From positions 1 through 12,528 of the forward strand of contig JAIROQ010000052.1 of assembly GCA_031257455.1 (NCBI GenBank): a DNA stretch of 12,528 bases, in the 5' to 3' direction. The position numbers were made by a program, and so were the translations under genes. The DNA comes from Prevotellaceae bacterium. GTDB taxonomy: Bacteria; Bacteroidota; Bacteroidia; Bacteroidales; UBA932. Positions within the stretch are counted from its first letter, which is position 1. Every line of letters begins with the position of its first letter. Below are positions 1 to 12,528 of the stretch, piece by piece. The notes beneath the pieces were generated by a model, which made no database searches, was not told the DNA's origin, and saw only the letters and a list, made by a program, of their open reading frames with translations.

Positions 1-65
1 TGTGCTGTGCTGTGCTGTGCTGTGCTGTGCTGTGCTGTGCTGTGCTGTGCTGTGCTGTGCTGTGC
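1..65. repeat. Pentanucleotide microsatellite (TGTGC)x13
   Basis: Thirteen uninterrupted copies of TGTGC fill the first 65 bases. The tract starts at the window edge, so the true copy number may be larger. Because the period is 5, the tract has no stop codon in any frame on either strand: it reads C-A-V-L-C on plus and A-Q-H-S-T on minus. If it lies in a gene or leader to the left, slippage would change the frame or the spacing. No start codon in this window ties it to a reading frame. A contig end caused by an unresolved repeat is an equally good explanation. Confidence 0.95.
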
Positions 66-78
66 GCTGACAACAGCT

Positions 79-117
79 CAAAGCTACGGATAATTCCGTT
101 ACGAAGCAGGGGCTTTG
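79..117. other. Nested stem-loop of unknown role
   Basis: CAAAGC at 79-84 pairs with GCTTTG at 112-117. Inside them ACGGA (86-90) pairs with TCCGT (95-99) around a TAAT loop. The structure lies 50-90 bases downstream of the minus-strand promoter-like box at 171-178, so it would sit in that transcript's leader or in a small RNA. I do not recognise it as a known RNA family. Apart from this, the microsatellite and the promoter, I see no gene in 1-249. Confidence 0.3.
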
Positions 118-170
118 GCGATATGTTTTCAAGAAGTTTTGCACAATGCGGTTTTTATTAAAAAACGCTG

Positions 171-178
171 CAAAAGTA
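171..178 (-). promoter_or_regulatory. Bacteroidota -7 box (TACTTTTG) pointing out of the window
   Basis: On the minus strand the sequence reads TACTTTTG followed by CAG, an exact match to TAnnTTTG. A TTTG lies upstream at 194-197 (minus), but the gap is only about 15 bases, shorter than usual. Transcription would run toward base 1, through the stem-loop at 79-117 and the microsatellite. No ATG start follows in that direction before the window ends, so the target is either a gene off the left side with a long leader or an RNA. Confidence 0.45.
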
Positions 179-249
179 CCGCCCCCTTGTTACAAAAGAA
201 TGACCGGATTATTACAAAACAGTTACAGTGGCCAAATGTTGGTAGAAAC

Positions 250-1764
250 TTAAAACCCGAAGTCGGTTACATTTTTTTCTTCCTGCTGTTCCCGTTGGGG
301 CAATTGCGCTATCTGGTGTTCGGCGTTTCCCTGTACGAAAATAGCTTTGTCGGGACGTCCCGGACAAATATATTCGCAACCGCCGCAACCAATACATAAG
401 TTGGTATCTACTTCCGGCAGCAGCAATCCATCGCGGTACGGCGCCATGTGTACGGCTTTGGTGGGGCAGTGTTCGTCACATGCGCCGCAATCCGTTCCGT
501 CAATAACCACAATGCAATTGCCGGCTTTGAATGTGGCTTTGCCGATTTGGGTGGTCTTTTTCTGTTCTACCGTCAAGGGACGCAATGCGCCGTTGGGGCA
601 GATAGACGAACAGTCCGTACATTCATAGTTGCAATAGGAATTATTGTAGTCCATGACCGGCATCATCACGCCGTCCAAACCGTATTCGCCCAATGCCGGA
701 CGCAATGCCTGCGAAGGGCATTTGGCAATGCATGCATGGCAGGCTGTACAATGTTGTTTCAGGTGCTCCAGACTTTGCGCGCCCGGCGGCGCAATGGCTT
801 TCGGGTTATTGGCGGGCAAGGACAGTTTCGGGGTTACCAGTTTGGCTATCGCCGCTATTCCCAACAACCCGGCTGAGGTAATGAATACCCTGCGTTTAGA
901 GGGGTCGGGCGTTGCCGGCCGTTCTTTCCATGCATAGGCAAAGCGGAAGCCAATGGCATTAAATTTACAAACAGTCGTGCAATTGTAGCATTGCACGCAA
1001 CGCGAAATATCCACCCGTTCCTCTTTCGCGTGCACGCATTGCGCCTTGCAGGAAATTTCACACATACGGCAATGGGTACACCGGTCTTTATCAATTCTGA
1101 TACGGAAGAGGGAATACTTGGAAAGCAAGCCCAGCAACGAACCTACGGGACAAATGGTATTACAGTACAGACGTCCGCGCCAGGCGCTCATTACGGTAAC
1201 CAGCACAAAAAACGCCGCCCCGCCAATAATACTGCCATAAGTAAACGTTTTGTAACTTACGCGGTAGAAGGTCGTGGAAAACAGGGTCGCTCCCCAGTTG
1301 TTAATACCGGTTACCGAAGGGCGGAATACGTTTTCCGCTACGCGCCCGTAGTTGCTGTAGGGGTCTAACCACAACAGCAGGGTCGCGCTGCCTAAAATCA
1401 TCAATACTGCGGTAGCCGTCATAATGCCGTAACGCAGCCAGCGGTGCGGCTTTGCATATTGGTAACGGCGGGCTTTCCTGCTTTTGAAAAGGTTGGCAAC
1501 AGTCGTAACCACATCCTGGAAAATGCCGGCAGGACAGAGTACGGAACAATAAACGCGCCCGAACAGGAGGGTCAGCGATACGATAAACAGCAATATGCCC
1601 AATGTGCCGGCAGCAGCCCCCAGCAAGGCGGGCGTGAATTGCCACCGCAGCAGTCCCTGCAAAAAAGCCGTAGTTTCCCCGCTAATATCTACAAAGACCA
1701 GCGTGATGAACGTTAAAATCAGCAACGCAATAATAACACGTAAATGACGAAGTATTTTATACAT
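250..1764 (-). CDS. Membrane polyferredoxin, NapH-like half fused to NapG/MauM-like half
   Basis: A 504-residue iron-sulfur membrane protein, likely passing electrons between the membrane and periplasmic or membrane-bound partners. Residues 1-285 are NapH-like: hydrophobic segments near 10-26, 46-69, 111-133 and 176-194, two CxxxCP motifs (C73/C77 and C201/C205), then two 4Fe-4S motifs (C229-C232-C235-C239 and C256-C259-C262-C266). After these comes a basic RRVF at 291-294 followed by a hydrophobic stretch, resembling an internal Tat-type or anchor signal. The C-terminal half (339-467) carries four further cysteine groups: C339/342/345/349, C378/382/385/389, C417/426/429/433 and C457/460/463/467, as in NapG/MauM ferredoxins. 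In nitrate reductase systems these halves are separate subunits. The gene follows the DUF362 gene by 93 bp with no TAnnTTTG box between, so they probably form an operon. No nitrate reductase gene is present, so the partner and substrate are unknown. Confidence 0.88.
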   Translation of the reverse strand: MYKILRHLRVIIALLILTFITLVFVDISGETTAFLQGLLRWQFTPALLGAAAGTLGILLFIVSLTLLFGRVYCSVLCPAGIFQDVVTTVANLFKSRKARRYQYAKPHRWLRYGIMTATAVLMILGSATLLLWLDPYSNYGRVAENVFRPSVTGINNWGATLFSTTFYRVSYKTFTYGSIIGGAAFFVLVTVMSAWRGRLYCNTICPVGSLLGLLSKYSLFRIRIDKDRCTHCRMCEISCKAQCVHAKEERVDISRCVQCYNCTTVCKFNAIGFRFAYAWKERPATPDPSKRRVFITSAGLLGIAAIAKLVTPKLSLPANNPKAIAPPGAQSLEHLKQHCTACHACIAKCPSQALRPALGEYGLDGVMMPVMDYNNSYCNYECTDCSSICPNGALRPLTVEQKKTTQIGKATFKAGNCIVVIDGTDCGACDEHCPTKAVHMAPYRDGLLLPEVDTNLCIGCGGCEYICPGRPDKAIFVQGNAEHQIAQLPQREQQEEKNVTDFGF

Positions 1765-1857
1765 AATTTCGGATTTTTTTCACCCATTTACATAAGCTAT
1801 CCTTACGTCCCTTAAAATAGTTAGTAACGTTGTTGATAACTTTTGTAATCTGTGTTG

Positions 1858-2784
1858 TTATAATCGGATACGCTCTATCTTCAGGGTATCGAGCTTGGTT
1901 GTTCCCACGTTCATTTCTTCGCCCAGTTTGATATGGCTGGCATCATTAATGCTCATGGTTTTGTATTGATTGAAAAAGTTCACGGAAGCCGTATCCACCG
2001 CTACCGGGTCAATCGCGATAAATATCGCTTTGGGCGTTTGCACGTCATTCAGGCTGGTGCCCTGCGGCCCGTTTTGCGTCATAATCCGGTAGGCGTCCAC
2101 AATATGTAATGCCGGTTTTTTATACGTGGAAAAATCGGCAATACATTGCTGCAAATCGTTGGAATGCCAGAAGCGGCGGTCCCACACTACGCCCATATTA
2201 TTTTTCATGGCAATGGTCATCTTTGCGCCGCCATGATTTTTCAGTACCGGCACATTTATCCATACATCATAATCCAAAATGGCTTCATGCACTTTGGCTT
2301 TTTTCAGGCGTTTTCCCTGCGGGATGGATACTTCCCGGTAATACTTTTCTTCGTGTGCAAACAGCATTTTTCCACCGGCGGCTTTCACGGCGTCTTCAAT
2401 GCCGCTGGTTTTGTAGCATTGTTTCCAGTCATCGCAGGTATGGTCGAAAACGGCCACTTCCGAAGCGCCCGCCGCCAGACAGTCTTTCACAATCGCCGCC
2501 ACCAGTTCGGGATTGGTGTCTGCCGCCAGTTCGGGTTTGCGATCCCAGCCTATATTCGGCTTGACAACTACCCGTTGTCCTTTCTTCACGAATTTTCCGA
2601 TACCGCCCATCGCGGCAATGGCTTTTCCGTAAAGTTGCACAGGCTCGCCGCCCATGACGGCTACTAAATCATTGGCCGTAGCAGAAGCCTTTGCCGGCTT
2701 GGCCAATAAATTTTCCGGTTGGAGTTGCATCATCCCGGCCGCGCCGCCCAATGCAAGCGTCTTTAGAAAATTTCTACGTTCCAT
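1858..2784 (-). CDS. Tat-exported DUF362 domain protein
   Basis: A 308-residue protein that matches the DUF362 family by eye. It has a typical twin-arginine signal at the N-terminus (RRNFLK at 3-8, then an Ala/Gly/Leu-rich core to about residue 22 and an AKA-type cleavage region near 28-33). This predicts export of a folded protein. The mature part has the family-like stretches VVVKPNIGW (near 72-80), VLKNHGG (near 181-187) and DPVAVDTAS (near 259-267). The biochemical role of DUF362 is not established. In Bacteroidota and other anaerobes it often sits beside ferredoxin-type proteins, as here with the polyferredoxin downstream. Tat export is usual for proteins that bind a cofactor before export, which would fit a redox role, but that is inference. 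The start is supported by a full promoter 30 bases upstream. Confidence 0.85.
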   Translation of the reverse strand: MERRNFLKTLALGGAAGMMQLQPENLLAKPAKASATANDLVAVMGGEPVQLYGKAIAAMGGIGKFVKKGQRVVVKPNIGWDRKPELAADTNPELVAAIVKDCLAAGASEVAVFDHTCDDWKQCYKTSGIEDAVKAAGGKMLFAHEEKYYREVSIPQGKRLKKAKVHEAILDYDVWINVPVLKNHGGAKMTIAMKNNMGVVWDRRFWHSNDLQQCIADFSTYKKPALHIVDAYRIMTQNGPQGTSLNDVQTPKAIFIAIDPVAVDTASVNFFNQYKTMSINDASHIKLGEEMNVGTTKLDTLKIERIRL

Positions 2785-2813
2785 AATGAATAATTTAAAA
2801 GGTTTTGAAAGTT

Positions 2814-2843
2814 CAAAAGTACAAATAATTATTGAAATACAAA
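2814..2843 (-). promoter_or_regulatory. Promoter of the DUF362/polyferredoxin operon
   Basis: On the minus strand a -33 type TTTG (2843-2840) is followed after 18 bases by TACTTTTG (2821-2814). This matches both elements of the Bacteroidota housekeeping promoter. The start codon lies at 2784, giving a leader of about 20-25 bases. It is the most complete promoter in the window. Confidence 0.75.
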
Positions 2844-2859
2844 AAAATATTTGTGGCAG

Positions 2860-3165
2860 GGGTGCATTTCAAATGGTCGCTTTTTTTGACATAATTCACA
2901 AAATTTGCAGAATTAACGGCTCCATGATTTTGTACAATCGCGCAATTATGCATCTCCTACGGAGATTTATCGGCGTTTTTTTGCATTGATTCTATTGATA
3001 TGGATGCCCTGACGGGCAATGTACGCACATAGCATATTCCAAGCATTTTTCCCACAAACGTTTTTCCCGTCAGGGAAAACAGTTCAATAGAAAAAGGCAT
3101 CCGTCCTGTTCCAAAACCTCGTAGCGATTTCCTGTTATCCGGATGCGACAATTTGAAATGCACCC
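2860..3165. mobile_element. MITE-like element with 15-21 bp terminal inverted repeats
   Basis: GGGTGCATTTCAAAT at 2860-2874 is exactly inverted at 3151-3165. The match extends inward to 21 bases with one mismatch (2860-2880 against 3145-3165). The 306 bp between contain a second, internal inverted repeat: TTCTATTGA plus CCCTGACGGG (2990-2998 and 3007-3016) against CCCGTCAGGG plus TCAATAGAA (3066-3075 and 3084-3092). They also contain local hairpins TCTCC-TAC-GGAGA, TGCCC-TGAC-GGGCA and TTTTCCC-GTCA-GGGAAAA. No transposase is present and no target duplication is obvious. It fills the gap between two divergent genes. It may be a non-autonomous transposon or a large dispersed palindromic repeat. 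Confidence 0.6.
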
Positions 3166-3187
3166 TCTATATCGGGCGATATAGAGG
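3164..3187. repeat. 10-bp perfect hairpin just upstream of the argS promoter
   Basis: CCTCTATATC (3164-3173) and GATATAGAGG (3178-3187) pair perfectly around a GGGC loop. The hairpin overlaps the right end of the MITE-like element by two bases and ends 18 bases before the argS -7 box. It could be an operator, a barrier to readthrough, or the hairpin next to which the element inserted. No T-run follows on the plus strand that would make it a standard terminator. Confidence 0.5.
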
Positions 3188-3205
3188 CGCTATACAAATT
3201 TTTCT

Positions 3206-3213
3206 TACCTTTG
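3206..3213 (+). promoter_or_regulatory. argS -7 box TACCTTTG
   Basis: TACCTTTG followed by CACC matches TAnnTTTG. No clear TTTG is seen at the -33 position. The argS ATG lies 38 bases downstream at 3252. This position argues against the longer reading frame that opens upstream at 3153, because that start would precede the promoter. Confidence 0.65.
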
Positions 3214-3251
3214 CACCTCGTGTAAAACAATTAACAGACCATTTGAATTTT

Positions 3252-5030
3252 ATGACTGCAGAACAATTTTTGAACAAAGAAATAGCCGAAGTGATTAGTA
3301 CCCTGTATGCGCAACCCGCGCCGGATGCGGCATTGCAATTGCAGGCTACCCGCAGGGAATTTGAAGGCGACTTCACGGCAATGATGTATCCATTGTTAAA
3401 AATCAGTAAAAAATCGCCGGAGCAAACGGGCGAAGAAGTCGGTAACCGGTTGCTGCAACAATGTCCTGAAGTCGCTTCTTTCAATGTGGTGAAGGGTTTT
3501 TTGAATATTAAATTATCGGCTGATTTTTGGCATAAACAGTTTGCCGCTATCGCCGGCTCGGAACGCTACGGGATGCACCCGTCTTCGGGAAAGACAGTCG
3601 TTATAGAATACTCGTCTCCCAATACAAATAAGCCATTACACTTGGGACATATCCGCAATAATTTATTGGGATGGTCGGTAGCGCAGCTTCTGGAAGCCAA
3701 TGGACACAGGGTAATCAAAGTAAATCTGGTAAACGATCGGGGTATTCATATTTGCAAGTCCATGCTGGCATGGCAAAAATGGGGCAAAGGCGAAACGCCG
3801 GAATCGTCCGGGAAGAAAGGCGACCACCTGGTCGGGGAATATTACGTGTTATTCGACAAGGAATATAAAAAGCAACAGGCAGCGCTGAAAATGCAAGGCA
3901 AAAGTGATGCGGACGCCGCCAAACAGGCGCCGGCAATAGGCGAAGCGCAGGAAATGCTGCGCCGGTGGGAACAGGGCGATGAAGAAACGGTAAACTTGTG
4001 GCGTACGATGAACACGTGGGTGTATGCGGGTTTTGATGAAACCTATCAAAAACTCGGCGTACATTTTGACAGGATTTATTACGAATCCGGCACGTACTTA
4101 TTAGGCAAAAAAATGATTGCCGAAGGTTTGCAAAAAGGCGTGTTTATGCGGCGTCCGGACGGTTCGGTGTGGATAGATTTAACGGCTGACGGTTTAGACC
4201 AGAAATTAGTATTGCGCTCCGATGGCACGTCAGTTTATATGACGCAAGACCTTGGGACGGCGCAGCAGCGCTACGAAGAATATCATTTTGACGAACACAT
4301 ATACGTGGTGGGCAATGAACAGAATTATCATTTTCAAGCGTTAAAATTAGTACTGGGTAAATTAGGTTATCCATGGGCTGCGGCGATTTATCACTTGTCG
4401 TACGGCATGGTGGAATTACCCGAAGGCAAAATGAAATCACGCGAAGGCACGGTAGTGGACGCAGACGATTTGATAGATGAAATGATTGCCACCGCCCGTG
4501 AAACTTCCACCGCATTGGGTAAACTTGATGAAATACCGGCAGACGAACAACAACGCCTCTTTGAAATGGTCGGGCTGGGAGCGCTGAAATATTTTATCCT
4601 GAAAGTAGATCCGAAAAAGACGATGCTCTTTGACCCCAAAGAATCTATTGATTTCAACGGCCACACGGGGCCATTTATCCAATACACCCATGCCCGCATA
4701 AAATCAGTATTGCGCAAGGCGGCGGAACAGGCATTGCAGCCTGCATTGACCGATGCCGCATGGATGGAAAAAGAAATTTCGCTTATAAAATTATTGCATG
4801 CCTTTCCTGCAAAAATCCGCGAAGCGGGCGATGAACATTCACCGGCATTGATTGCCAATTATGCTTACGAGCTGGCGAAAGAATTTAACCAATACTACCA
4901 TGACGTTTCCATACTGAAAGAACCGGACGCCGCGCTGAAAAAACAACGCTTGCTGCTCCTGCAACAGGTAGCCGCCGTATTAAAGACGGCCATGAATATC
5001 TTAGGCATCGCACTGCCGGAAAGAATGTAG
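3252..5030 (+). CDS. argS: Arginyl-tRNA synthetase
   Basis: A cytoplasmic class I aminoacyl-tRNA synthetase that charges tRNA-Arg, 592 residues, which is normal for the family. The N-terminal tRNA-binding domain (about 1-100) is followed by the catalytic Rossmann domain with the HIGH-type motif HLGH at 130-133 in the context SSPNTNKPLHLGH. The KMSKS-equivalent is KMKSREG at 393-399. The C-terminal DALR-type anticodon-binding domain begins near TGPFIQYTHAR (about 475) and runs to the end. The frame is open upstream to an ATG at 3153, but that would lie inside a terminal inverted repeat and before the -7 box at 3206, so the start MTAEQFLNKE at 3252 is preferred. The gene has its own promoter, and the next gene starts 71 bases downstream with another. 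Confidence 0.97.
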   Translation: MTAEQFLNKEIAEVISTLYAQPAPDAALQLQATRREFEGDFTAMMYPLLKISKKSPEQTGEEVGNRLLQQCPEVASFNVVKGFLNIKLSADFWHKQFAAIAGSERYGMHPSSGKTVVIEYSSPNTNKPLHLGHIRNNLLGWSVAQLLEANGHRVIKVNLVNDRGIHICKSMLAWQKWGKGETPESSGKKGDHLVGEYYVLFDKEYKKQQAALKMQGKSDADAAKQAPAIGEAQEMLRRWEQGDEETVNLWRTMNTWVYAGFDETYQKLGVHFDRIYYESGTYLLGKKMIAEGLQKGVFMRRPDGSVWIDLTADGLDQKLVLRSDGTSVYMTQDLGTAQQRYEEYHFDEHIYVVGNEQNYHFQALKLVLGKLGYPWAAAIYHLSYGMVELPEGKMKSREGTVVDADDLIDEMIATARETSTALGKLDEIPADEQQRLFEMVGLGALKYFILKVDPKKTMLFDPKESIDFNGHTGPFIQYTHARIKSVLRKAAEQALQPALTDAAWMEKEISLIKLLHAFPAKIREAGDEHSPALIANYAYELAKEFNQYYHDVSILKEPDAALKKQRLLLLQQVAAVLKTAMNILGIALPERM

Positions 5031-5073
5031 TTTTGAATTGCCCGTCAACTCCTCTTTCCACCAAAATAAATTG

Positions 5074-5081
5074 TATATTTG
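5074..5081 (+). promoter_or_regulatory. -7 box TATATTTG of the GT2 gene
   Basis: TATATTTG followed by CAACC matches TAnnTTTG. It lies 21 bases before the ATG at 5102. No good TTTG is seen at -33. It sets the start of the glycosyltransferase at 5102 rather than at the earlier in-frame ATG at 5033, which would lie before the promoter. Confidence 0.65.
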
Positions 5082-5101
5082 CAACCAGATTTTTAGAAAA
5101 T

Positions 5102-5833
5102 ATGAGCGATACGTTGGTAATTATTCCCATGTACAATGAATGTGAAAATGCGGAAAGAATTTTGCGGAAGGTTTTTTCTTTCGGTCGTTTTCATGTTTTA
5201 GTCATTGACGACCATTCTCCCGATGGCACGGCTGCTATCGTTAAGCGTCTGCAAAAGGAATTTCCGGAACAGTTGCATTTAATAGAACGCGCCGGCAAAT
5301 TGGGCTTGGGCACTGCTTATATCACGGGATTTCATTGGGCGCTGGCGCATGAATATGAATATGTCATCGAGATGGACGCCGATTTTTCGCATAACCCGGA
5401 CGACCTGCCGCGCCTGTATGAGGCCTGTGCCAATGGCGCGGATGTAGTTATCGGGTCGCGTTATTCCAATGGCGTGAGCGTGGTAAACTGGCCGCTCGGC
5501 CGCGTATTGATGTCCTACTTCGCTTCCAAATACGTGCGGCTGATTACCGGCATGCACGTGCATGATACGACTGCCGGCTTTGTATGTTACCGCCGCCGCG
5601 TATTGCAACATATTCCATTAGACCGCATCCGCATGAAAGGCTACGGCTTCCAAATCGAAATGAAATACTTCGCTTATAAATCAGGATTTACGATAAAGGA
5701 AGCGCCTATTATTTTTATCGACCGCAAAGAGGGCGCGTCCAAAATGAGCGGCGGCATCTTTAATGAAGCCTGCATGGGCGTGCTGAAATTACGGTTCCGG
5801 CGGGTCAAGAAGTGGAAGCGCCTTTGTCCGTAG
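5102..5833 (+). CDS. Polyprenyl/dolichyl-phosphate mannosyltransferase-like GT2 enzyme
   Basis: A 243-residue family 2 glycosyltransferase of the dolichol-phosphate mannose synthase (DPM1/Ppm1) type. It is expected to move a hexose, usually mannose from GDP-mannose, onto a polyprenyl phosphate at the cytoplasmic face of the inner membrane. The motifs appear in family order: IPMYNE at 8-13, IDDHSPDG at 35-42, the metal-binding DAD in EMDADFSHNP at 90-99, GSRY at 118-121, and the C-terminal RKEGASKMSGG. No membrane anchor domain follows, so it is the short, peripheral form. The exact sugar cannot be read from sequence. It has its own -7 box and probably leads the unit GT2-pyrC-EamA. The stop codon lies inside a small hairpin (5823-5839). 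Confidence 0.88.
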   Translation: MSDTLVIIPMYNECENAERILRKVFSFGRFHVLVIDDHSPDGTAAIVKRLQKEFPEQLHLIERAGKLGLGTAYITGFHWALAHEYEYVIEMDADFSHNPDDLPRLYEACANGADVVIGSRYSNGVSVVNWPLGRVLMSYFASKYVRLITGMHVHDTTAGFVCYRRRVLQHIPLDRIRMKGYGFQIEMKYFAYKSGFTIKEAPIIFIDRKEGASKMSGGIFNEACMGVLKLRFRRVKKWKRLCP

Positions 5834-5839
5834 GACAAA
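5823..5839. repeat. Small hairpin over the GT2 stop codon
   Basis: TTTGTCC (5823-5829) pairs with GGACAAA (5833-5839) around a GTA loop. The TAG stop at 5831-5833 lies in the loop and first stem base. There is no T-run behind it, so it does not look like a simple terminator. The CC-GTA-GG core resembles the CC-TAC-GG core of a hairpin in the 2860-3165 element. Confidence 0.5.
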
Positions 5840-5846
5840 ATAGCAA

Positions 5847-5870
5847 GATTTAAAGATTTAAAGATTTAAA
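5847..5870. repeat. Tandem octamer (GATTTAAA)x3
   Basis: Three perfect copies of GATTTAAA lie in tandem in the GT2-pyrC gap. It is AT-rich with no visible promoter. Confidence 0.85.
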
Positions 5871-5897
5871 GAAATGGCAAAACAACCCTGCGGGACG

Positions 5898-5917
5898 TTT
5901 CCCCCACGTGGGGGAAA
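5898..5917. repeat. 20-bp perfect palindrome TTTCCCCCACGTGGGGGAAA
   Basis: The 20 bases are exactly their own reverse complement, centred on an ACGT core. GGGACGTTTCC starts just before it (from 5892) and recurs near 5936-5946, where ACGTTT-CCA-AAACGT forms a second, smaller hairpin. It lies between GT2 and pyrC. It could be a repeat-family palindrome, a protein-binding operator, or an RNA hairpin that reduces readthrough into pyrC. Confidence 0.8.
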
Positions 5918-5964
5918 GGCAAAACAGGTGGCGGGGACGTTTCCAAAACGTTATTGCTGCTTCG

Positions 5965-5999
5965 CATAACTCATAATTCATAACTCATAACTCATAACT
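5965..5999. repeat. Tandem heptamer (CATAACT)x5 next to the pyrC start
   Basis: Five tandem copies of CATAACT, the second with a single change (CATAATT), end nine bases before the pyrC ATG. They form most of the leader. Changes in copy number would change spacing but not the reading frame. Confidence 0.85.
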
Positions 6000-6008
6000 C
6001 CAAAAAGT

Positions 6009-7337
6009 ATGTCTTTCTTTATACGCAATGCCACGATAATTAACGAGGGGCTGGGTGTTCAAGGCAGCCTTTTTATCAGCGGCGGCATTATTCAACGTAT
6101 TTACCTGTCGCCGGAATTGCCCGAAATCCCTGCCGGCAGTACGGTGATTGACGCTACCGGGCAATGGCTGTTGCCCGGCGTGATTGATACGCATGTGCAT
6201 TTCCGCGAACCCGGCGCAACGCATAAAGCCTGTATCGCATCGGAAACGCGTGCAGCGGCGGCCGGCGGCGTTACTTCGTTTATCGACATGCCCAACAATA
6301 CGCCCGCTACGGCCACGCTGGACTTGCTGGAAGAAAAATGCCGCCGCGCCGCCGCCGTATCATTGTTGAATTATTCGTTTTACTTGGGCGCAACCAACGA
6401 TAACCTTGCGGAGATAAAACATATCAATCCGGCGGAAGTAGGCGGCGTGAAACTGTTTTTAGGCTCCTCCACCGGAAATATGTTGGTGGATGATGAAAAA
6501 ACCATAGCGGCTATTTTTGCCGAATCGCCGGTATTGACGGCGGTGCATTGCGAAGACGACCGGCTTATCCGGCGCAACCTGACTGCCCTTGTGGCACGCT
6601 ACGGCGAGGCATTGCCGGCCGGAATGCATCCGCATATCCGTACGGCAGCGGCTTGCCTGCGCAGCGCCGAACGCGTGATGACTTTGGCATTGAAATACCG
6701 GGCGGCGGTGCATGTATTGCACGTTACTACTGCCCAAGAGTGCGCATTGTTCTCGCCGGGCGCCGCCATTACTGCCGAAGCCTGTATACCGCACTTGTGG
6801 TTTGACGACAGCGCTTATGCACAGGGGCAGCATTTTGTAAAATGCAATCCGGCCGTCAAAACCGCTGCCGACCGCGAAGCCTTGCGCCATGCGGTAACCA
6901 ACGGTGGTATCACCACCATCGCCACCGACCATGCACCACACACGCGCAGCGAAAAACAACAACCCTATTTGCAGGCGCCGGCGGGTATGCCTTCGGTGCA
7001 ATATGCGCTGCCGCTGATGCTGGAACTGTGCCGCGAAAAAATCTTTACGCCCGGAATGGTAGTGGAACGTATGTGCCATGCTCCGGCAAAGTTGTTCAAG
7101 ATAGTCCGGCGGGGCTTTATCCGCGAAGGCTATTATGCCGATTTGGCATTAGTGCATCCTGACAGGGAATGGCGTATTACGGACGCTACCGTGCTGTCGA
7201 AATGCGGATGGACGCCTTATGCCGGAACAACCGTACATGCACAGGTTACCCATACCTTTGTTAATGGCGTGCCGGTGTTCGTAAACGGAAAAATAAACGA
7301 CTCCGTCAGAGGCCAACGATTACTTTTTACCGCATGA
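6009..7337 (+). CDS. pyrC: Dihydroorotase
   Basis: A 442-residue amidohydrolase of the dihydroorotase type. It catalyses ring closure of carbamoyl-aspartate to dihydroorotate in pyrimidine synthesis, in the cytoplasm. The binuclear metal site is complete: HVH at 62-64 in DTHVHFREPG, the lysine that becomes carboxylated at 148 in GGVKLFLGSS, H180 in the HCED motif, H238 in VLHVTT, and D307 in ATDHAPH. It resembles the longer class I enzymes rather than the ~350-residue E. coli type. The substrate-binding region FREPG (65-69) supports dihydroorotase over hydantoinase or allantoinase. No -7 box is seen in the 175-bp gap upstream, so it is probably read from the GT2 promoter. It overlaps the next gene by ATGA. 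Confidence 0.94.
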   Translation: MSFFIRNATIINEGLGVQGSLFISGGIIQRIYLSPELPEIPAGSTVIDATGQWLLPGVIDTHVHFREPGATHKACIASETRAAAAGGVTSFIDMPNNTPATATLDLLEEKCRRAAAVSLLNYSFYLGATNDNLAEIKHINPAEVGGVKLFLGSSTGNMLVDDEKTIAAIFAESPVLTAVHCEDDRLIRRNLTALVARYGEALPAGMHPHIRTAAACLRSAERVMTLALKYRAAVHVLHVTTAQECALFSPGAAITAEACIPHLWFDDSAYAQGQHFVKCNPAVKTAADREALRHAVTNGGITTIATDHAPHTRSEKQQPYLQAPAGMPSVQYALPLMLELCREKIFTPGMVVERMCHAPAKLFKIVRRGFIREGYYADLALVHPDREWRITDATVLSKCGWTPYAGTTVHAQVTHTFVNGVPVFVNGKINDSVRGQRLLFTA

Positions 7338-8233
7338 AAAAATTTATAAAATCCTACGCCGCCATTGTTATTACGATGTCGCTCTTTGGCCTGTCATTCG
7401 TATGGTCGGAGCAGTTATTGACTTTCCGGCATTTCCCGCCGCAGAGTTTGACCTTGTTCCGGTTGTTTTTCTCCGCCCTGCTGTTACTCGTATTTCTGGT
7501 TGCCGTCAAACGTTTTCAACTGCCGAAGCGGCGCGACCTTAAATGGTTTTTCCTGCTGGCGCTGTTCGAACCGTTTATTTATTTCATCGGCGAAACCAAC
7601 GGCCTGCGCATTACGCAATCGCCATCGCTGGGGTCTATTATCATTGCGACTATTCCGCTGTTTACCATGATTGCCTGTTTTATTTTTTACGGGGAACGTT
7701 CTACATGGATGAATATTGCCGGCATGTTGATGACCTTACCGGGCGTGGTGTTGGTGATGTTCAACAATGATTTGAGCTTGCAGGCGCCGCTGTCCGGGAT
7801 TTTCCTGTTCTTTCTGGCGGCTATGGCTACGGCCGGTTATGCCGTGGTGGTACGGAAACTTTCGGCCTATTCGCCGTTTACTATCGTCACTTTTCAAGGA
7901 TTTATAGGCACGCTTTATTTTCTTCCGCTGTCGCTGGGTTTTGAACGGCAGGCATTGGCAGCTGTCCGGTGGGACTTCGATACGCTTTATCCGCTGGCCA
8001 TGCTGACGGTGTTTGTATCGGCGTTGGCATTTGTACTGTTTGTTTATTCCGTGAAACAAATCGGCGTGGCCTATTCCAATATGTTCACCGCATTCGTGCC
8101 GGTAGTGGCCACGCTCACGGCCGTACTGACCGGCCGCGAAACAATAGCCGGGCATCAGGTAGCCGGAATGGCGGTCGTTATTTTTGGCGTAATTCTCTCC
8201 CAGTGGACAGTAGGCAGACGCAGTTTTCAGTAG
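7334..8233 (+). CDS. DMT superfamily transporter (EamA family)
   Basis: A 299-residue inner-membrane protein with ten hydrophobic segments by eye (about 8-30, 38-58, 71-91, 98-120, 125-143, 153-173, 182-203, 218-240, 246-268, 277-294). This is the two-fold EamA layout. Substrates in this family vary (amino acids, nucleosides, metabolites), and sequence alone does not decide. The start codon overlaps the pyrC stop (ATGA), which suggests translational coupling and a shared transcript. The last codons (GRRSFQ) and the TAG stop are made of the CAGTAGGCAG repeat that fills the following gap, so the C-terminal tail has probably been changed by that repeat. Confidence 0.88.
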   Translation: MKKFIKSYAAIVITMSLFGLSFVWSEQLLTFRHFPPQSLTLFRLFFSALLLLVFLVAVKRFQLPKRRDLKWFFLLALFEPFIYFIGETNGLRITQSPSLGSIIIATIPLFTMIACFIFYGERSTWMNIAGMLMTLPGVVLVMFNNDLSLQAPLSGIFLFFLAAMATAGYAVVVRKLSAYSPFTIVTFQGFIGTLYFLPLSLGFERQALAAVRWDFDTLYPLAMLTVFVSALAFVLFVYSVKQIGVAYSNMFTAFVPVVATLTAVLTGRETIAGHQVAGMAVVIFGVILSQWTVGRRSFQ

Positions 8234-8429
8234 GCAGTTTTCAGTAGGCAGTTGGCAGTCGCAGTTGGCAGTAGGCAGTTGCAGTTGGCAGTCGCAGTTG
8301 GCAATTGACACTAATCATTATATCCATAGTGGCGTCAGCACTGCCTACTGCGACTGCCGACTGTTTACTGCCTACTGCCGACTGTTTACTGCCACTGCCG
8401 ACTGTTTACTGCCACTGCCTACTGCGACT
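8208..8429. repeat. CAGT-rich inverted repeat array between convergent genes
   Basis: The left arm (8208-8303) is built from units such as CAGTAGG, CAGTTGG, CAGTCG and CAGTTTT, with 13 CAGT cores. The right arm (8339-8429) is the same text inverted, with 13 ACTG cores (ACTGCCT, ACTGCCG, ACTGTTT). A ~35 bp spacer lies between. The arms can fold into a long imperfect hairpin. The left arm begins within the EamA gene and the right arm ends within prfA, so the array supplies the end of both reading frames. A role as a two-way terminator is plausible. Confidence 0.85.
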
Positions 8430-9501
8430 CTTTTAGCCGTTCGGCATTTTCGGCAACCTGCAACTGGTCGATGACTTCTTGAATGTCGCCGTCCAAGAAG
8501 ACCGGCAAATTATACATCGTGTAATTAATGCGATGGTCGGTTACGCGGCTTTGCGGATAGTTATAGGTGCGTATTTTTGCTGAACGGTCGCCGGTAGAAA
8601 CCATTGTTTTTCGTTTGTTGGAAATCTCGTTCAGGTATTTTTCATATTCCATATTATACAGGCGTGTGCGCAGTTCCGCCAATGCTTTGTCGAAGTTTTT
8701 CAGTTGCGATTTTTCGTCCTGGCACTGCACTACGATACCTGTCGGGATATGCGTCAAACGAATGGCGGAATAAGTGGTATTCACCGACTGCCCGCCGGGT
8801 CCTGAAGAACAGAAAGTATCTTTGCGGATATCGTTCATATTTAATTCAACATCGAACTCGTCTGCTTCCGGCAATACGGCTACCGAAGCGGCAGAGGTAT
8901 GCACGCGTCCCTGCGTTTCGGTTTGCGGTACGCGCTGCACGCGGTGTACGCCGCTTTCGTATTTCAATACGCCATATACGCCGTTGCCTTTCACTTCGCA
9001 GATAATTTCTTTATAACCGCCCACCGTACCTTCGGAGCTGCTGTTTACCTCCATTTTCCAACCTTTCTTTTCCGCGAATTTTACATACATGCGGAATAAC
9101 TCGCCGGCGAAAATGGATGCTTCATCGCCGCCGGCGCCGGCACGGATTTCAAGGATGGCATTCTTGCTGTCCTGCGGGTCGGCGGGAATGAGCAGGAGCT
9201 TTATCTTTTCTTCCATTTGCGGAATGGACGCTTCCAGTAAATCCACTTCTTCTTTTGCCATCTCGCGCAATTCCGCATCTTTCTCGGTAGCAAGAATAGT
9301 TTTCGCGCTTGTCCAGTCGGCCAATGCTTTTTTATACGTGGAAGTAATCGCTACAATCGGTTCCAGTTCGCGGTATTCCTTGTTCAGCGACACATAGCGT
9401 TTCATGTCGGACAATGCATCAGGCTCGCCCAATTGTGCGCCGATAGTTTCAAACTTCCGTGTTAAGCCTTCCAGTTTGGTCAGGATATTATTTTCATCCA
9501 T
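8419..9501 (-). CDS. prfA: Peptide chain release factor 1
   Basis: A 360-residue class I release factor that ends translation at UAA and UAG. The codon-reading site has the RF1-type PxT tripeptide (PQT at 192-194, where E. coli has PAT) rather than the SPF of RF2. The catalytic GGQ is at 236-238 in SSGPGGQSVNTT. The coiled N-terminal domain (about 1-105) and the central QRVPQTETQGRVHTSA block are intact, and the length is normal. It has its own -7 box and a short leader. The last three codons and the stop (ESQ, TAG) lie in the CAGT-rich repeat. Because RF1 reads TAG, the gene ends on a codon its own product recognises; this is noted only as a detail. Confidence 0.96.
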   Translation of the reverse strand: MDENNILTKLEGLTRKFETIGAQLGEPDALSDMKRYVSLNKEYRELEPIVAITSTYKKALADWTSAKTILATEKDAELREMAKEEVDLLEASIPQMEEKIKLLLIPADPQDSKNAILEIRAGAGGDEASIFAGELFRMYVKFAEKKGWKMEVNSSSEGTVGGYKEIICEVKGNGVYGVLKYESGVHRVQRVPQTETQGRVHTSAASVAVLPEADEFDVELNMNDIRKDTFCSSGPGGQSVNTTYSAIRLTHIPTGIVVQCQDEKSQLKNFDKALAELRTRLYNMEYEKYLNEISNKRKTMVSTGDRSAKIRTYNYPQSRVTDHRINYTMYNLPVFLDGDIQEVIDQLQVAENAERLKESQ

Positions 9502-9516
9502 ATTTCAAATTTTGTG

Positions 9517-9524
9517 CAAAAGTA
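9517..9524 (-). promoter_or_regulatory. prfA -7 box TACTTTTG
   Basis: On the minus strand TACTTTTG is followed by CAC, an exact TAnnTTTG match, 15 bases before the prfA ATG. The -33 position has only a weak TTTC. The short leader supports the start MDENNILTKL. Confidence 0.65.
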
Positions 9525-9563
9525 CATAAAAAAGTTGAGTTGAAAGGAGGAATTAAGGATTTG

Positions 9564-9618
9564 CGATACTCGACTTCTCGATATTCGATATTCGATATCC
9601 GACTTTTCGATTCGCGAC
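9564..9618. repeat. TCGATATT-type low-complexity repeat upstream of prfA
   Basis: The stretch repeats CGATATT and CGACTT(C/T)TCG units, including three close CGATAT(T/C) copies, with partly palindromic content. It lies upstream of the prfA promoter and downstream of the tolC stop. No gene is seen in it. Confidence 0.6.
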
Positions 9619-9624
9619 AAGCGC

Positions 9625-9668
9625 AGTGGCGCAAGCCCAATTAGTCACATTAGCACATTAGCACATTA
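9625..9668. repeat. Composite repeat, left copy (3' of tolC)
   Basis: AGTGGCGCAAGCCCAATT (9625-9642) is followed by CACATTAG units (9646-9653, 9654-9661, partial 9662-9668). The same text occurs inverted upstream of tolC at 11110-11179, with a ~32 bp insertion in that copy. Confidence 0.7.
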
Positions 9669-9683
9669 AAAAATCCCTCAATC

Positions 9684-11012
9684 CTATTCGGCCATGACCA
9701 GTTCGCCGCCCAGGATGCGGAGGTTGATTTCGGAGAGTTTGGCCTGGTACATGGCATTGAATTTGCGGTCTACCGCTTCCAGGTAGTTTTTCTGGTATTC
9801 CCGGAACTCTATTCCGGAGAGGTTGCCCAGTTTGTAGCGCGACATGGCGGCATCCAATGTCTGGAAGGCTGTTTCGACCGCTTCGGTTTCAAAATTTATC
9901 ATCAGCAGGTTTCGCTCATAGGTGTTGTACAGCAATGCCAGCTCGCTCATCACGCTGTTTTCGATTTGCCGATAATTCAGTTCGCTGCCTTTGACTTCCA
10001 GTTGGGCGTTCTTTATCCGGCGGTGGACGTCGAAACCGCTGAACAGCGTCCACGAGAGGGAAAAACCCCAGTTAAAACCGTTGGAACGGTTGTAGGTAAT
10101 AGCCGCCGAAGGCGTGTCGGCAAAAGTATAATTATAACCCGTATTAAAATCGATGGTCGGGTATCGCGCCGCCCTTGCAATTTTCAAATCCAGTTCCGTC
10201 ATGCGCTTGCCGAGGCGGGCGGTTATCAGGGAACTGTTGTAATCAAGGGTGCGCGCCGACAGTTGTTCCCTGTCCATTTTGGACAGCAGGGTGATGCTGT
10301 CGCTTACATAATCAAGCGTATTCAATGGTATATTCATTAACGTATTCAGCCGGATGTAGGCATTTTGCAATACTTCTTCCTGTGTAACGAGGGTCGAACT
10401 GTCGGCATTCAGGTCTATTTTCGCCTGCCGCAAATCCAGGCCCGAAGACGAACCGAGCGTGTACATTTCCATCGCCTGCTGGTAACGCTCCTGCGACAGC
10501 ATCAGCGAATACTGCGCGGCGCTCAGGCGGTTTTTCAACACTATTATATTATAGTATTCGTAACACACTTGCGCAATCAGGTTTTCGAGCGATATTTTCA
10601 CTTCCTGCCCGCTCACGCTCAACGCCTCTTTCTGGCGGTTATAGGTGGCAAACATCGACAGCCCGTCGAACAGACGCCAGTTGAGCGATACGCCGGCATT
10701 CAGGTTATTCGCCCTGGCGTCTATAGTTGTTTCTTCCGGACTGGACGCCAGTGTGCGCGTGCTGGTACTGTGTGTTTGGTTTTGCGTGCCGCTGGCCGTT
10801 ACATTCGGCAAAAAAGGTTTGTAGGTAACATTATTTTCCGCAATGGCTTGCCGGTTGTGGGCAATTTTAACGGAATAATTACTTTCCACCGCCTGCCGGA
10901 TACAGTCATACAGCAGCCATGGCTGCTGCCCCCGGAGCGGGAGAACGGAAAGAATGAGAAGAAAAAAACTCCCCAGTCGAAAGAAGCATGTAGAGATTGT
11001 TAATTTCGCCAT
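9684..11012 (-). CDS. TolC family outer-membrane efflux protein
   Basis: A 442-residue outer-membrane channel component of the TolC/OEP type. It would form the outer exit for an efflux pump or a type I secretion system. An N-terminal signal peptide is clear (basic start, hydrophobic FFLLILSVL, likely cut after LRG near residue 27). Two OEP repeats follow, with long helical segments and OEP-like stretches such as LNAGVSLNWRLFDG and FNWGFSLSWTLFSGFD that mark the beta-strand parts. The frame is open to an ATG at 11069, but that overlaps the -7 box at 11067-11074, so MAKLTIST at 11012 is chosen. No membrane-fusion or pump gene lies beside it here, so it is a stand-alone gene whose partners are encoded elsewhere. 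Confidence 0.9.
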   Translation of the reverse strand: MAKLTISTCFFRLGSFFLLILSVLPLRGQQPWLLYDCIRQAVESNYSVKIAHNRQAIAENNVTYKPFLPNVTASGTQNQTHSTSTRTLASSPEETTIDARANNLNAGVSLNWRLFDGLSMFATYNRQKEALSVSGQEVKISLENLIAQVCYEYYNIIVLKNRLSAAQYSLMLSQERYQQAMEMYTLGSSSGLDLRQAKIDLNADSSTLVTQEEVLQNAYIRLNTLMNIPLNTLDYVSDSITLLSKMDREQLSARTLDYNSSLITARLGKRMTELDLKIARAARYPTIDFNTGYNYTFADTPSAAITYNRSNGFNWGFSLSWTLFSGFDVHRRIKNAQLEVKGSELNYRQIENSVMSELALLYNTYERNLLMINFETEAVETAFQTLDAAMSRYKLGNLSGIEFREYQKNYLEAVDRKFNAMYQAKLSEINLRILGGELVMAE

Positions 11013-11066
11013 CTTTTTATAAAAATTAGTAAGTTGAAATGCGGGGTATAACATAATTACACAGTG

Positions 11067-11074
11067 CAAATATA
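11067..11074 (-). promoter_or_regulatory. tolC -7 box TATATTTG
   Basis: On the minus strand TATATTTG is followed by CAC, an exact TAnnTTTG match. It lies 54 bases before the chosen start at 11012. No clear -33 TTTG is seen. Confidence 0.6.
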
Positions 11075-11109
11075 CAAAAAAGTTTTCCTCTACCGGCGTT
11101 AAAAGCTGA

Positions 11110-11179
11110 TGTGCTAATGTGACTAATTGATTTGGAGATTTGGAAATGTGGAAATGTGATTAATTGGGCTGGCGCCACT
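11110..11179. repeat. Composite repeat, right copy (5' of tolC)
   Basis: TGTGCTAATGTGACTAATTG (11110-11129) and AATTGGGCTGGCGCCACT (11162-11179) correspond, inverted, to 9625-9657. A ~32 bp stretch of TTTGGA/AATGTGGA units sits between them. The following CCACTAACCACTAATCACTAATTATA is similar in style to the spacer of the CAGT array (CACTAATCATTATA near 8308-8321). Confidence 0.7.
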
Positions 11180-11208
11180 AACCACTAATCACTAATTATA
11201 ATTTTGCA

Positions 11209-11237
11209 TTGTAATTCAAAAAAGAGTTGTATCTTTG
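11209..11237 (+). promoter_or_regulatory. Plus-strand promoter facing the AT-rich gene pair
   Basis: TTG (11209-11211), an 18-base gap, and TATCTTTG (11230-11237, followed by CAA) match the Bacteroidota pattern. Transcription would start near 11244. No convincing protein gene follows on the plus strand before the hairpin terminator at 11275-11306. It may make a short RNA or be the remnant of a gene displaced by the AT-rich module. Confidence 0.55.
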
Positions 11238-11243
11238 CAAACG

Positions 11244-11310
11244 AGTTCATTTCTCATTTGAGAAAAGGAAATCGAAAAACGCAAACCCTGAAGTTCTGCG
11301 TTTTTTGCTT
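11244..11310 (+). ncRNA. Possible ~60 nt RNA between a promoter and a terminator
   Basis: Between the -7 box at 11230-11237 and the terminator at 11275-11306 there is room for one short transcript. It would contain a small stem-loop, TTTCTC-ATTT-GAGAAA (about 11250-11265), then the terminator hairpin. It ends just short of the 3' end of the opposing nuclease-like gene (stop at 11313). No known RNA family is recognised. The call rests on position and signals only. Confidence 0.25.
11275..11306 (+). terminator. Hairpin terminator
   Basis: AAAAACGCA (11275-11283) pairs with TGCGTTTTT (11297-11305) around a 13-base loop. On plus it is followed by TTTTTT-GC-TTTTTT, a strong U-tract. On minus the tract is only five T, so it works better for plus-strand transcripts, though it may also end the minus-strand pair that stops at 11313. 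Confidence 0.6.
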
Positions 11311-11312
11311 TT

Positions 11313-11513
11313 TTACACCATATTGCTTAATCTCCTTCTGTACTTTTTCATTATCTTTTCACGCGCTTTATCTTTTCCTGCAAGATAGTATGCGGTCAGC
11401 AAATAATATTCGTTTTTCTTATGCATCGGCTCTAAAACAATGACATAAAATTCATCGTGGTCGTAAATGTACGTTCTTATTCCGTTGGGCTCTGCAACCG
11501 AAAACACAAACAT
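11313..11513 (-). CDS. C-terminal fragment of the split nuclease-like gene
   Basis: A 66-residue frame opening at an ATG six codons after the TAA, in the same phase as the 95-residue frame. It holds the predicted beta-sheet and a lysine/arginine-rich tail. No promoter is seen before it, so expression would need re-initiation or readthrough. Confidence 0.45.
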   Translation of the reverse strand: MFVFSVAEPNGIRTYIYDHDEFYVIVLEPMHKKNEYYLLTAYYLAGKDKAREKIMKKYRRRLSNMV

Positions 11514-11531
11514 ATTGTTCTTTTTGTTTTC

Positions 11532-11819
11532 TTAAATATGATGCTTAATCCAGTGTAAGCGCACGGAACGAGCCATATCAAACGCTCGTCTGTTTGTTGT
11601 CTTATCAGTAATCACAGTTGTAAGGTGTGTAAAAAGCCGTTCCATTGAATCCTGTCCTTCGGCAGGCGTTGGGTTTATCTGTTTTGTTTGAAATTTAAAA
11701 TTCGGATTGTTTGTAATATCACGGTCAAACACTCTCTGCAAAGATTGTTTGCGCTGAAATTCATTCATCGAAACAATATCCAATAACTGATTATATCTTT
11801 TGAGCACATTTAGCGGCAT
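11532..11819 (-). CDS. N-terminal fragment of the split nuclease-like gene
   Basis: A 95-residue frame starting one base after the DUF3800 stop and ending at the in-frame TAA. It is mostly helical, with charged segments (NEFQRKQSLQRVFDRD) and an R/H-rich end. On its own it would lack the strand-rich half. Confidence 0.5.
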   Translation of the reverse strand: MPLNVLKRYNQLLDIVSMNEFQRKQSLQRVFDRDITNNPNFKFQTKQINPTPAEGQDSMERLFTHLTTVITDKTTNRRAFDMARSVRLHWIKHHI

Positions 11820-11820
11820 C

Positions 11821-12492
11821 TTATTTCAATTCAATAAAAAATAGGTTTAACTTGTTATTATAATTGGTTCTTCCTAAATCAGGCATTTCGGAGCGTCTTT
11901 TTATTTTCTCAATAATTTGCATTTTCGCAATGTTTTTATGTGCATCGTCATTAATATTATAAGAAATTGCGCCCATTAAAAAATCAGCCAACTGCATCAA
12001 TAAAGCTTCGTGAGAACGAATATTTTGGACATTGCGGAAAACCCCCAATTTAGTATTTAGTATTTCGCGTAACTTGCGAACTTTACAAGCGCTTAAAGTG
12101 TCTTTAATATCAAGGTAGACATTGTAATTATAAAACGGATTAATATTATAATGCAATAACCGATAGTACATTTTGTAATAAAAATCATCGTAGGTTTGCG
12201 AAAAAACATCATTGTTAATTTTTGATTTTTCAACACCAAGGATACGAAATTTAAGGTCCGTGTCAAAAAAATAATCAACCAAGTCCAAATAGAAGCGGAG
12301 TTTTGAGTGTGAAACTTTTGTCCATTTTATTTCTGCATAAAAATGGTGTTCTTTTTTCAGCTCGTCAATTCGCTTGCTGTGTCTTTCTACTTGCGGATAA
12401 GCGCAACTGACCGACCCTAAAAACATAAATTTTTTGTGGTCGTTTTCCAAATGGCAACTTTCATCGCAATATATGTTGAATGTTTTATCCAT
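11821..12492 (-). CDS. DUF3800 domain protein
   Basis: A 223-residue protein of the DUF3800 family, thought to have an RNase H-like fold. Conserved acidic positions are visible: D10-E11 in IYCDES, E54 in the EIKW motif (54-57), D128 in YLDIKD, E162 and D170 in QLADFLMGA. All candidate metal-binding residues appear to be kept, so it may be an active nuclease. No substrate is established for the family, which is common on mobile elements and in variable regions. Base composition is clearly AT-rich (poly-Lys/Asn/Tyr/Ile usage) compared with argS or pyrC, which suggests transfer. It is followed after one base by the split nuclease-like gene. A weak -7-like sequence (TTATTTTG, one mismatch, 12504-12511 minus) lies just upstream; the window ends 36 bases before the start, so an upstream gene cannot be excluded. 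Confidence 0.82.
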   Translation of the reverse strand: MDKTFNIYCDESCHLENDHKKFMFLGSVSCAYPQVERHSKRIDELKKEHHFYAEIKWTKVSHSKLRFYLDLVDYFFDTDLKFRILGVEKSKINNDVFSQTYDDFYYKMYYRLLHYNINPFYNYNVYLDIKDTLSACKVRKLREILNTKLGVFRNVQNIRSHEALLMQLADFLMGAISYNINDDAHKNIAKMQIIEKIKRRSEMPDLGRTNYNNKLNLFFIELK

Positions 12493-12528
12493 AAATTAAT
12501 TTTCAAAATAATAGGGCATGCTTTTATA

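Follow-up and report, generated by a model that had tools for sequence, protein, structure and literature searches.

What is the role of two small, nuclease-like genes that lie one base apart in an AT-rich patch at the end of a bacterial contig? The question arises in contig JAIROQ010000052.1 of a Prevotellaceae bacterium (GenBank assembly GCA_031257455.1), of which positions 1 to 12,528 of the forward strand, 12,528 nucleotides (nt) in all, were analysed and are called the window here. A preliminary description had read the locus as a two-gene module, in which a DUF3800 protein (A) is followed by a nuclease-like partner (B). The pair is real and already known as PDC-M04 or rlfA-rlfB, but a third component had been overlooked: a structured RNA on the plus strand at 11245–11316, convergent with the two genes. 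This RNA component is new. What the computations established is the pair with its gene order, the folds predicted for both proteins, the RNA and its covariation, promoter-like elements on the RNA strand, and copies of the RNA without the proteins in bacteria and phages. We see an even chance that the three parts form an RNA-controlled ribonuclease (RNase) toxin module, with the RNA as its antidote and with phages that have taken this antidote RNA. The features of the locus, including three minus-strand open reading frames (ORFs) of 223, 95, and 66 amino acids (aa), are the following:

11821–12492, minus strand: A, a DUF3800 protein of the RlfA / PDC-M04A family, 223 aa, with an RNase HII-like predicted fold and the acidic set D10, E11, E54, D128, D170
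11532–11819, minus strand: first piece of B, a 95-aa ORF, positions 1–95 of the RlfB / PDC-M04B family, holding the conserved H and both R
11532–11534, minus strand: in-frame TAA that interrupts B, read from the sequence
11313–11513, minus strand: second piece of B, a 66-aa ORF in the same frame, PDC-M04B positions 103–166, holding the conserved T of the last strand
11245–11316, plus strand: structured RNA, convergent with A-B, 66.9 bits to the covariance model R1 (of which the window RNA is itself a row); its 3' end overlaps the B stop codon
11230–11237, plus strand: TATCTTTG, which matches the Bacteroidetes -7 element TANNTTTG and lies immediately 5' of the RNA
11250–11265, plus strand: RNA hairpin 1 (TTTCTC-ATTT-GAGAAA), from alignment and folding
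11273–11316, plus strand: RNA hairpin 2 and T-run in the layout of an intrinsic terminator, from alignment and folding

The alignment of the DNA of 11 related loci revealed a strongly conserved non-coding block 3' of B. Almost all loci of the set have this block downstream of B, among them records titled cyanobacterium, Geobacteraceae, Nitrosomonas, Dehalococcoidia, and Anaerolineae; phages P1 and P7 have it as well. On the strand opposite B it reads as an RNA of ~72 nt with two hairpins. The 5' hairpin has the form CUC-A-UCUAC-loop-GUAGA-AG-GAG, and a short linker joins it to a variable hairpin, after which the DNA is T-rich. In an alignment of 81 sequences, from which L181 and L070 were left out, 17 of the 18 base pairs showed changes on both sides, and 90.9% of the cells paired versus 68.5% in shuffles (0 of 500 shuffles as high). 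The covariation score was 0.680 and stayed at or below 0.214 when the partners were slid. Single-sequence folding of seven examples gave z values from -2.6 to -7.1, with -3.3 for the window RNA. The RNA is almost certainly a real structured element.

For the search of further copies, genome contigs were scanned with an alignment of A and the best 80 loci were kept; 49 of these loci, the window, and 31 viral or phage sources were in the covariance model R1. With this model, the RNA was recovered beside B in 77 of the 80 genome loci, with only 31.5 bits in L054, and in the window. The three missed stretches end inside A (L113), 25 nt after B (L123), and 98 nt after B (L085). Among the viral and phage sources, R1 found the RNA in 46 of 55 (47 rows), P1 included; eight of the nine misses end at or before the RNA place and the ninth, L199, has a broken A. 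Ten control DUF3800 loci from genomes without a B match (L017, L020, L023–L027, L148, L150, and L151) gave no R1 match. Four divergent A-B pairs (L012, L013, L014, and L028) also lacked a significant R1 match; in the last three, hairpins are visible by eye 3' of B and may be diverged versions of the RNA.

The Rfam search showed no significant match at the RNA in the window or in 19 related loci, some of which were searched at gathering scores only, and no curated family reached its Rfam 15 gathering score there. All Rfam matches in the window were at chance level; one of them, to the family rli40, overlapped the RNA at 15.3 bits (gathering score 100, E 0.6) and was rejected. The C4 RNA of P1, used as a positive control, was recovered.

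The RNA strand has a promoter-like element of its own. The motif TANNTTTG, which we take to be the consensus of the Bacteroidetes -7 element, lies within 24 nt 5' of the RNA in 60 of the 68 loci taken as Bacteroidota (shuffled mean 1.4), versus 1 of 68 in a control stretch, taken from the opposite strand at the distal end of those 60 nt. In the other loci, 7 from genomes and the rest viral or phage, sigma-70-like pairs scored at least 10 of 12 in 22 of 50, compared with 2% of shuffles. No conserved element was seen upstream of A in 13 aligned loci. Across 49 loci, hairpin 1 tracks A and not B (partial values 0.61 versus -0.12), so the RNA may act through A.

The description of the two genes as a same-strand pair with the spacing TAA-g-ATG was correct (11821–12492, then 11532–11819, both minus), and so was the AT-rich composition of the module, which has 34% GC versus 49% in window positions 1–11000. 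The module is also more AT-rich than its flanks in 71 of the 72 related loci measured. The pair keeps together: B comes directly after A in 79 of the 80 best loci, and the 80th ends inside A. B is unbroken in 78 of these 79, with A-B gaps of -11 to +16 nt, and is broken in L054. In viral contigs, an adjacent B ORF was found in 44 of 47 scorable A loci, the exceptions being L178, L182, and L202. In L182, ~2.8 kb separate A from a partial B ORF, a spacing that would fit an insertion between or within the genes; the RNA comes after this ORF. A class sample of 395 genomes contained a strong A match (at least 171 bits) in 12 genomes, all with B; two further B matches were C-terminal fragments. A phylum sample comprised 296 genomes, 27 with A and 14 with a match to the one B model used; in one locus of this sample (L041), B was N-terminally cut and its stretch held no A.

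Protein A passes the Pfam model DUF3800 (PF12686) at 55.4 bits against a cut-off of 21 and matches PADLOC PDC-M04A at 6e-83. Its nearest fetched relative, L044, is 87% identical. The acidic set pointed out previously is indeed intact, D10, E11, E54, D128, and D170 being invariant in 49 of 49 aligned A proteins. The predicted structure is an RNase HII-like RNase H fold, with RNase HII as the best fold match and a similarity well above background. Pfam showed no other domain in A, including no DNA-binding domain. The sequence search of the PDB gave one weak match for A and none for B.

The partner was expected to be one open gene with a BECR-like layout. The layout found partial support, and the single reading frame none: one in-frame TAA splits B of the window into two ORFs. 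The pieces match positions 1–95 (6e-42) and 103–166 (9e-25) of the 167-position PDC-M04B model and are 84% and 81% identical to B of L044. As pN/pS versus L044 is 0.16 before the stop and 0.18 after it, the two pieces look equally conserved, which leaves a recent break, a sequencing error, or read-through as explanations. In the family, H65 and R84 are present in 56 of 56 members, position 87 is R or K in 56 of 56, and position 142 is T or S in 55 of 56; we infer that these four positions are catalytic. A W is likewise invariant in 56 of 56. The best rows of the predicted-fold comparison were RNase toxins, the tRNase colicin D among them. Pfam assigned no family to B and gave scattered weak matches, the commonest in 10 of the 56 members at 0.002. 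Neither A nor the B pieces have a HEPN or ABC ATPase domain by Pfam.

Breaks in B also occur elsewhere. In one genus, a B junction at residue 116 is identical in five genomes, and a sixth has the same start. A programmed breakpoint or phase variation was rejected as its origin, because the break at residue 116 is one common deletion junction and not a slippery tract. Genus g49 (L216–L235, L237–L266) is a graveyard of A and B remnants, with the identical internal B deletion junction near residue 116 in several genomes. When L059 and L056 were compared with the window, B of L059 was closer to the window B (81/79%) than A of L059 to the window A (70%), which suggests that B moves between A backgrounds.

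The RNA persists where the proteins have been lost. Of the 65 genomes of one genus, 13 had A, 18 had B, and 26 had the RNA, at 35 places. For 30 RNA loci of this genus, A and B were both intact in 3, A was intact and B broken in 1, only a B remnant was left in 15, and neither was found in the stretch in 11, two of which were weak, 27-bit matches. In 24 genus loci, the RNA block was 94% and 90% alike in two groups versus 50–77% for the flanks (L263 and L247 had no anchor for this comparison). The search of 198 genomes of the window's class gave 32 RNA places; 19 at 24 to 32 bits were dropped and 13 at 37.9 bits or more were counted. Eight of the 13 had A-B, the window included, two had a B remnant, and three had neither gene or a trace of A.

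Phages also have the RNA alone. For this, viral contigs were scanned with exact RNA motifs, without the use of any protein, which yielded 44 + 5 = 49 stretches. Three of them contained A and B, seven had less than 1.3 kb on the B side, and 39 had neither A nor B on either strand. These 39 RNA-only stretches are parts of genomes and amount to 363 kb. All of them scored 29 to 64 bits with R1; since hairpin 1 was in the search pattern, only hairpin 2 gives independent support in these scores. The RNA lies within 600 nt of a transfer RNA (tRNA) gene in 15 of the 39 versus 6.9 expected (0 of 5000 simulations); with near-identical stretches grouped, this amounts to 12 of 30 groups. The tRNA excess was absent at 150 nt (5 versus 3.0 expected). 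The RNAs beside tRNA genes mostly had R1 scores in the lower part of the range.

A phi3T-like stretch matches 23 phage records wholly or partly, 21 from Bacillus (the phi3T/SPbeta group) and 2 from Vibrio. In SPBc2, two tandem RNA copies (43.3 and 38.7 bits with R1) occupy an unannotated gap between yonN and yonK. A tandem double RNA was also seen in the SPbeta-like phage stretches L304, L308, L315, L327, L332, L337, and L346. An A match at 1e-10 was obtained for 10 phage records, and none of these is of the SPbeta group.

In phage P1, RlfA is 40.7% identical to A of the window over 99%, and RlfB matches the B profile at 8e-31. In the P1 record (NC_005856, L204), repL is followed by a C1 operator (Orlf) and then by rlfA, which shares one base with rlfB. 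The RNA place, at record positions 52904–52976, has no annotated feature, and the annotation of the pair offers only a possible association with lytic replication. As Orlf is under C1 control, the pair would be expected to stay off in lysogens and to be expressed in lytic growth. An RNase H fold has been described for P1 RlfA and the NamA toxin (Anantharaman 2013, PMC3710099). The available text of the P1 papers that name rlfB (PMC6906374, PMC9603915, and PMC10695390) contains neither a test of function nor the RNA. Neither the name "PDC-M04" nor the RNA was found in the literature searched, which did not extend to subscription papers.

The neighbourhood of the pair, named in the preliminary description as a place to look for defence genes, includes type I restriction genes. 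Of 78 loci, 26 had hsdS just before or hsdR just after the pair, 37 did not, and 15 were unscorable, that is, 26 of 63 scorable loci. In L051, the order hsdM-hsdS-A-B-hsdR was confirmed by Pfam. Among the neighbours scanned, Specificity_I was found in 24 of 145 upstream, and REase_I models in 21 and REase_III models in 3 of 136 downstream. On a quick tree of A, the type I label requires 13 changes versus a shuffled mean of 22.2 (0 of 500 shuffles as low); it is thus clustered, yet gained or lost repeatedly. Several loci have housekeeping genes beside the pair.

The suggestion that the nuclease-type pair is a toxin-antitoxin or anti-phage module found partial support; it left out the RNA. The module that we favour would have three parts: an RNase HII-like nuclease (RlfA), a BECR-like endoribonuclease (RlfB), and the convergent two-hairpin RNA of ~72 nt, which has a promoter-like element of its own. 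The toxic RNase would be RlfB, alone or together with RlfA, and its target is probably tRNA or another translation RNA. The RNA would be the antidote that keeps the protein or proteins inactive, perhaps by binding RlfA. An infection that stops transcription in the host or destroys its transcripts would remove the RNA and free the RNase, and the RNA-only phages would use the RNA as a decoy antidote. An RNA that is encoded beside two RNase-like proteins, kept after their loss, and found alone in phages fits an antidote better than a guide or a simple regulator. A tRNA-type target is suggested by the resemblance of B to colicin D and, for part of the phages, by the nearby tRNA genes; it would agree with the phage tRNA counter-defence described in PMC10264068 and PMC11555353.

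The RNA might instead be a bound cofactor or guide of RlfA, with RlfB as an accessory or effector and with phage RNAs as decoys that occupy RlfA. We regard such an RNA-using nuclease as unlikely: the RNA has no spacer-like variable part, its hairpin 1 being conserved across phyla and its hairpin 2 terminator-like, and a cofactor role alone leaves unexplained the highly identical RNA copies kept without A. A small chance goes to a protein–protein toxin-antitoxin system, in which RlfA itself would be the direct antitoxin of RlfB and the RNA would do no more than adjust expression. The order of A then B at translational-coupling distances agrees with it, as do the correlated distances of A and B (r 0.79; 78 loci, 3003 pairs) and the cases of a broken B with an intact A (the window, the copy L002/L266 of genome G229, and L054). 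However, A has an RNase HII-like predicted fold, a complete acidic set, and by Pfam no DNA-binding domain; the RNA almost matches the proteins in constancy and is kept after their loss; and a regulator of expression alone would be unexpected in 39 phage stretches that have neither protein.

The restriction neighbours allow a guard of the PrrC type, to which we assign a slim chance. Here a restriction enzyme would keep the RNase pair in check, phage inhibition of restriction would release it, and the RNA would be an extra safety catch. Such a model was set out for PrrC, and a restriction-guard logic was proposed by analogy for HEPN RNases (PMC3710099). The hsdS and hsdR genes that adjoin the pair, the label gained or lost repeatedly, and the Specificity_I and REase_I neighbours agree with a guard, whereas most scorable loci (37 of 63) have no adjoining type I genes, several have housekeeping genes there, and the window copy has no recognised restriction gene on its visible side. 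The P1 name rlf suggests a function in replication, possibly lytic, where RlfA would remove RNA primers or hybrids. We consider it very improbable, in spite of the position after repL and RNase HII as the best fold match. Both genes are listed as non-essential in a CRISPR interference (CRISPRi) table of P1 (PMC10695390), rlfA-rlfB lies in a variable, low-GC region of P1-like elements (PMC9603915), and it is deleted or replaced in others (PMC6906374); the restriction-operon setting of other loci likewise argues against replication.

With the RNA-controlled toxin module preferred, its generalisation is more tentative: possibly, an RNase H-fold protein and a BECR RNase under one convergent RNA represent a new class of RNA-controlled conflict system across several bacterial phyla, and phages (SPbeta, phi3T, and tRNA-array phages) carry the RNA alone as a counter-defence decoy. 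If true, this would assign a function to an unannotated phage RNA and to rlfAB of P1. A candidate defence system for which we found no published mechanism, and rlfA/rlfB of P1, gain a testable third component. Should the RNA be the antidote, phages such as the model phages SPbeta and phi3T would have an RNA counter-defence at hand in gaps without annotation, and the tRNA arrays of phages would contain other elements besides tRNAs. The R1 model detects such loci without any protein.

The window copy, judged by its sequence, is probably no longer toxic, as B is interrupted, and could still make the RNA, since A, the RNA, and the promoter-like element are kept. Its own genome, 80% complete, contained one copy each of A, B, and the RNA. 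The contig ends 36 nt before A, so the neighbours on the A side are outside the view. On the other side, the next long ORF (9684–11069) is TolC-like, by eye only. Farther away, a low-complexity stretch with repetitive ORFs on both strands (8235–8475) lies between an EamA-like gene and prfA, both named by eye.

Antidote RNAs of RNases are known from ToxIN, a type III toxin-antitoxin system, in which a small structured RNA likewise stands beside an RNase-like gene; the tandem RNA copies in some SPbeta-like phage stretches are a further likeness. In type III systems, the antitoxin RNA is directly upstream of the toxin gene and encoded with it, usually as tandem repeats, and ToxN has its own fold, set apart from BECR. 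Here, the RNA follows the 3' end of the toxin-like gene B, is encoded on the other strand, and has a promoter-like element to itself; there are two proteins, one of them BECR-like rather than ToxN-like, and neutralisation by the RNA is putative. Type II systems have a small DNA-binding protein as antitoxin; here the only other protein is of the DUF3800 family, RNase HII-like, with an intact acidic set. PrrC with the EcoprrI type I system resembles the present loci in having an RNase-type protein beside type I restriction genes, and differs from them in that our loci have separate small proteins, a structured RNA, many copies apart from type I genes, and no HEPN/ABC ATPase. The DUF3800 RNA families of Rfam, the numbering of which runs up to XI, are likewise structured RNAs tied by name to DUF3800. 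They include DUF3800-I and -IX (PMC11701678), and DUF3800 has been found with putative non-coding RNAs (PMC10910872); no DUF3800 RNA family matched in the window or in the 19 related loci searched. The PDC-M04 models of PADLOC comprise two proteins without a description, and the convergent RNA is not among them; in the window, PDC-M04A and PDC-M04B are side by side, the latter in two pieces. The rlfA-rlfB pair of P1, named rapA-rapB in P7, has the same gene order and, 3' of rlfB, the same RNA at 60.8 bits.
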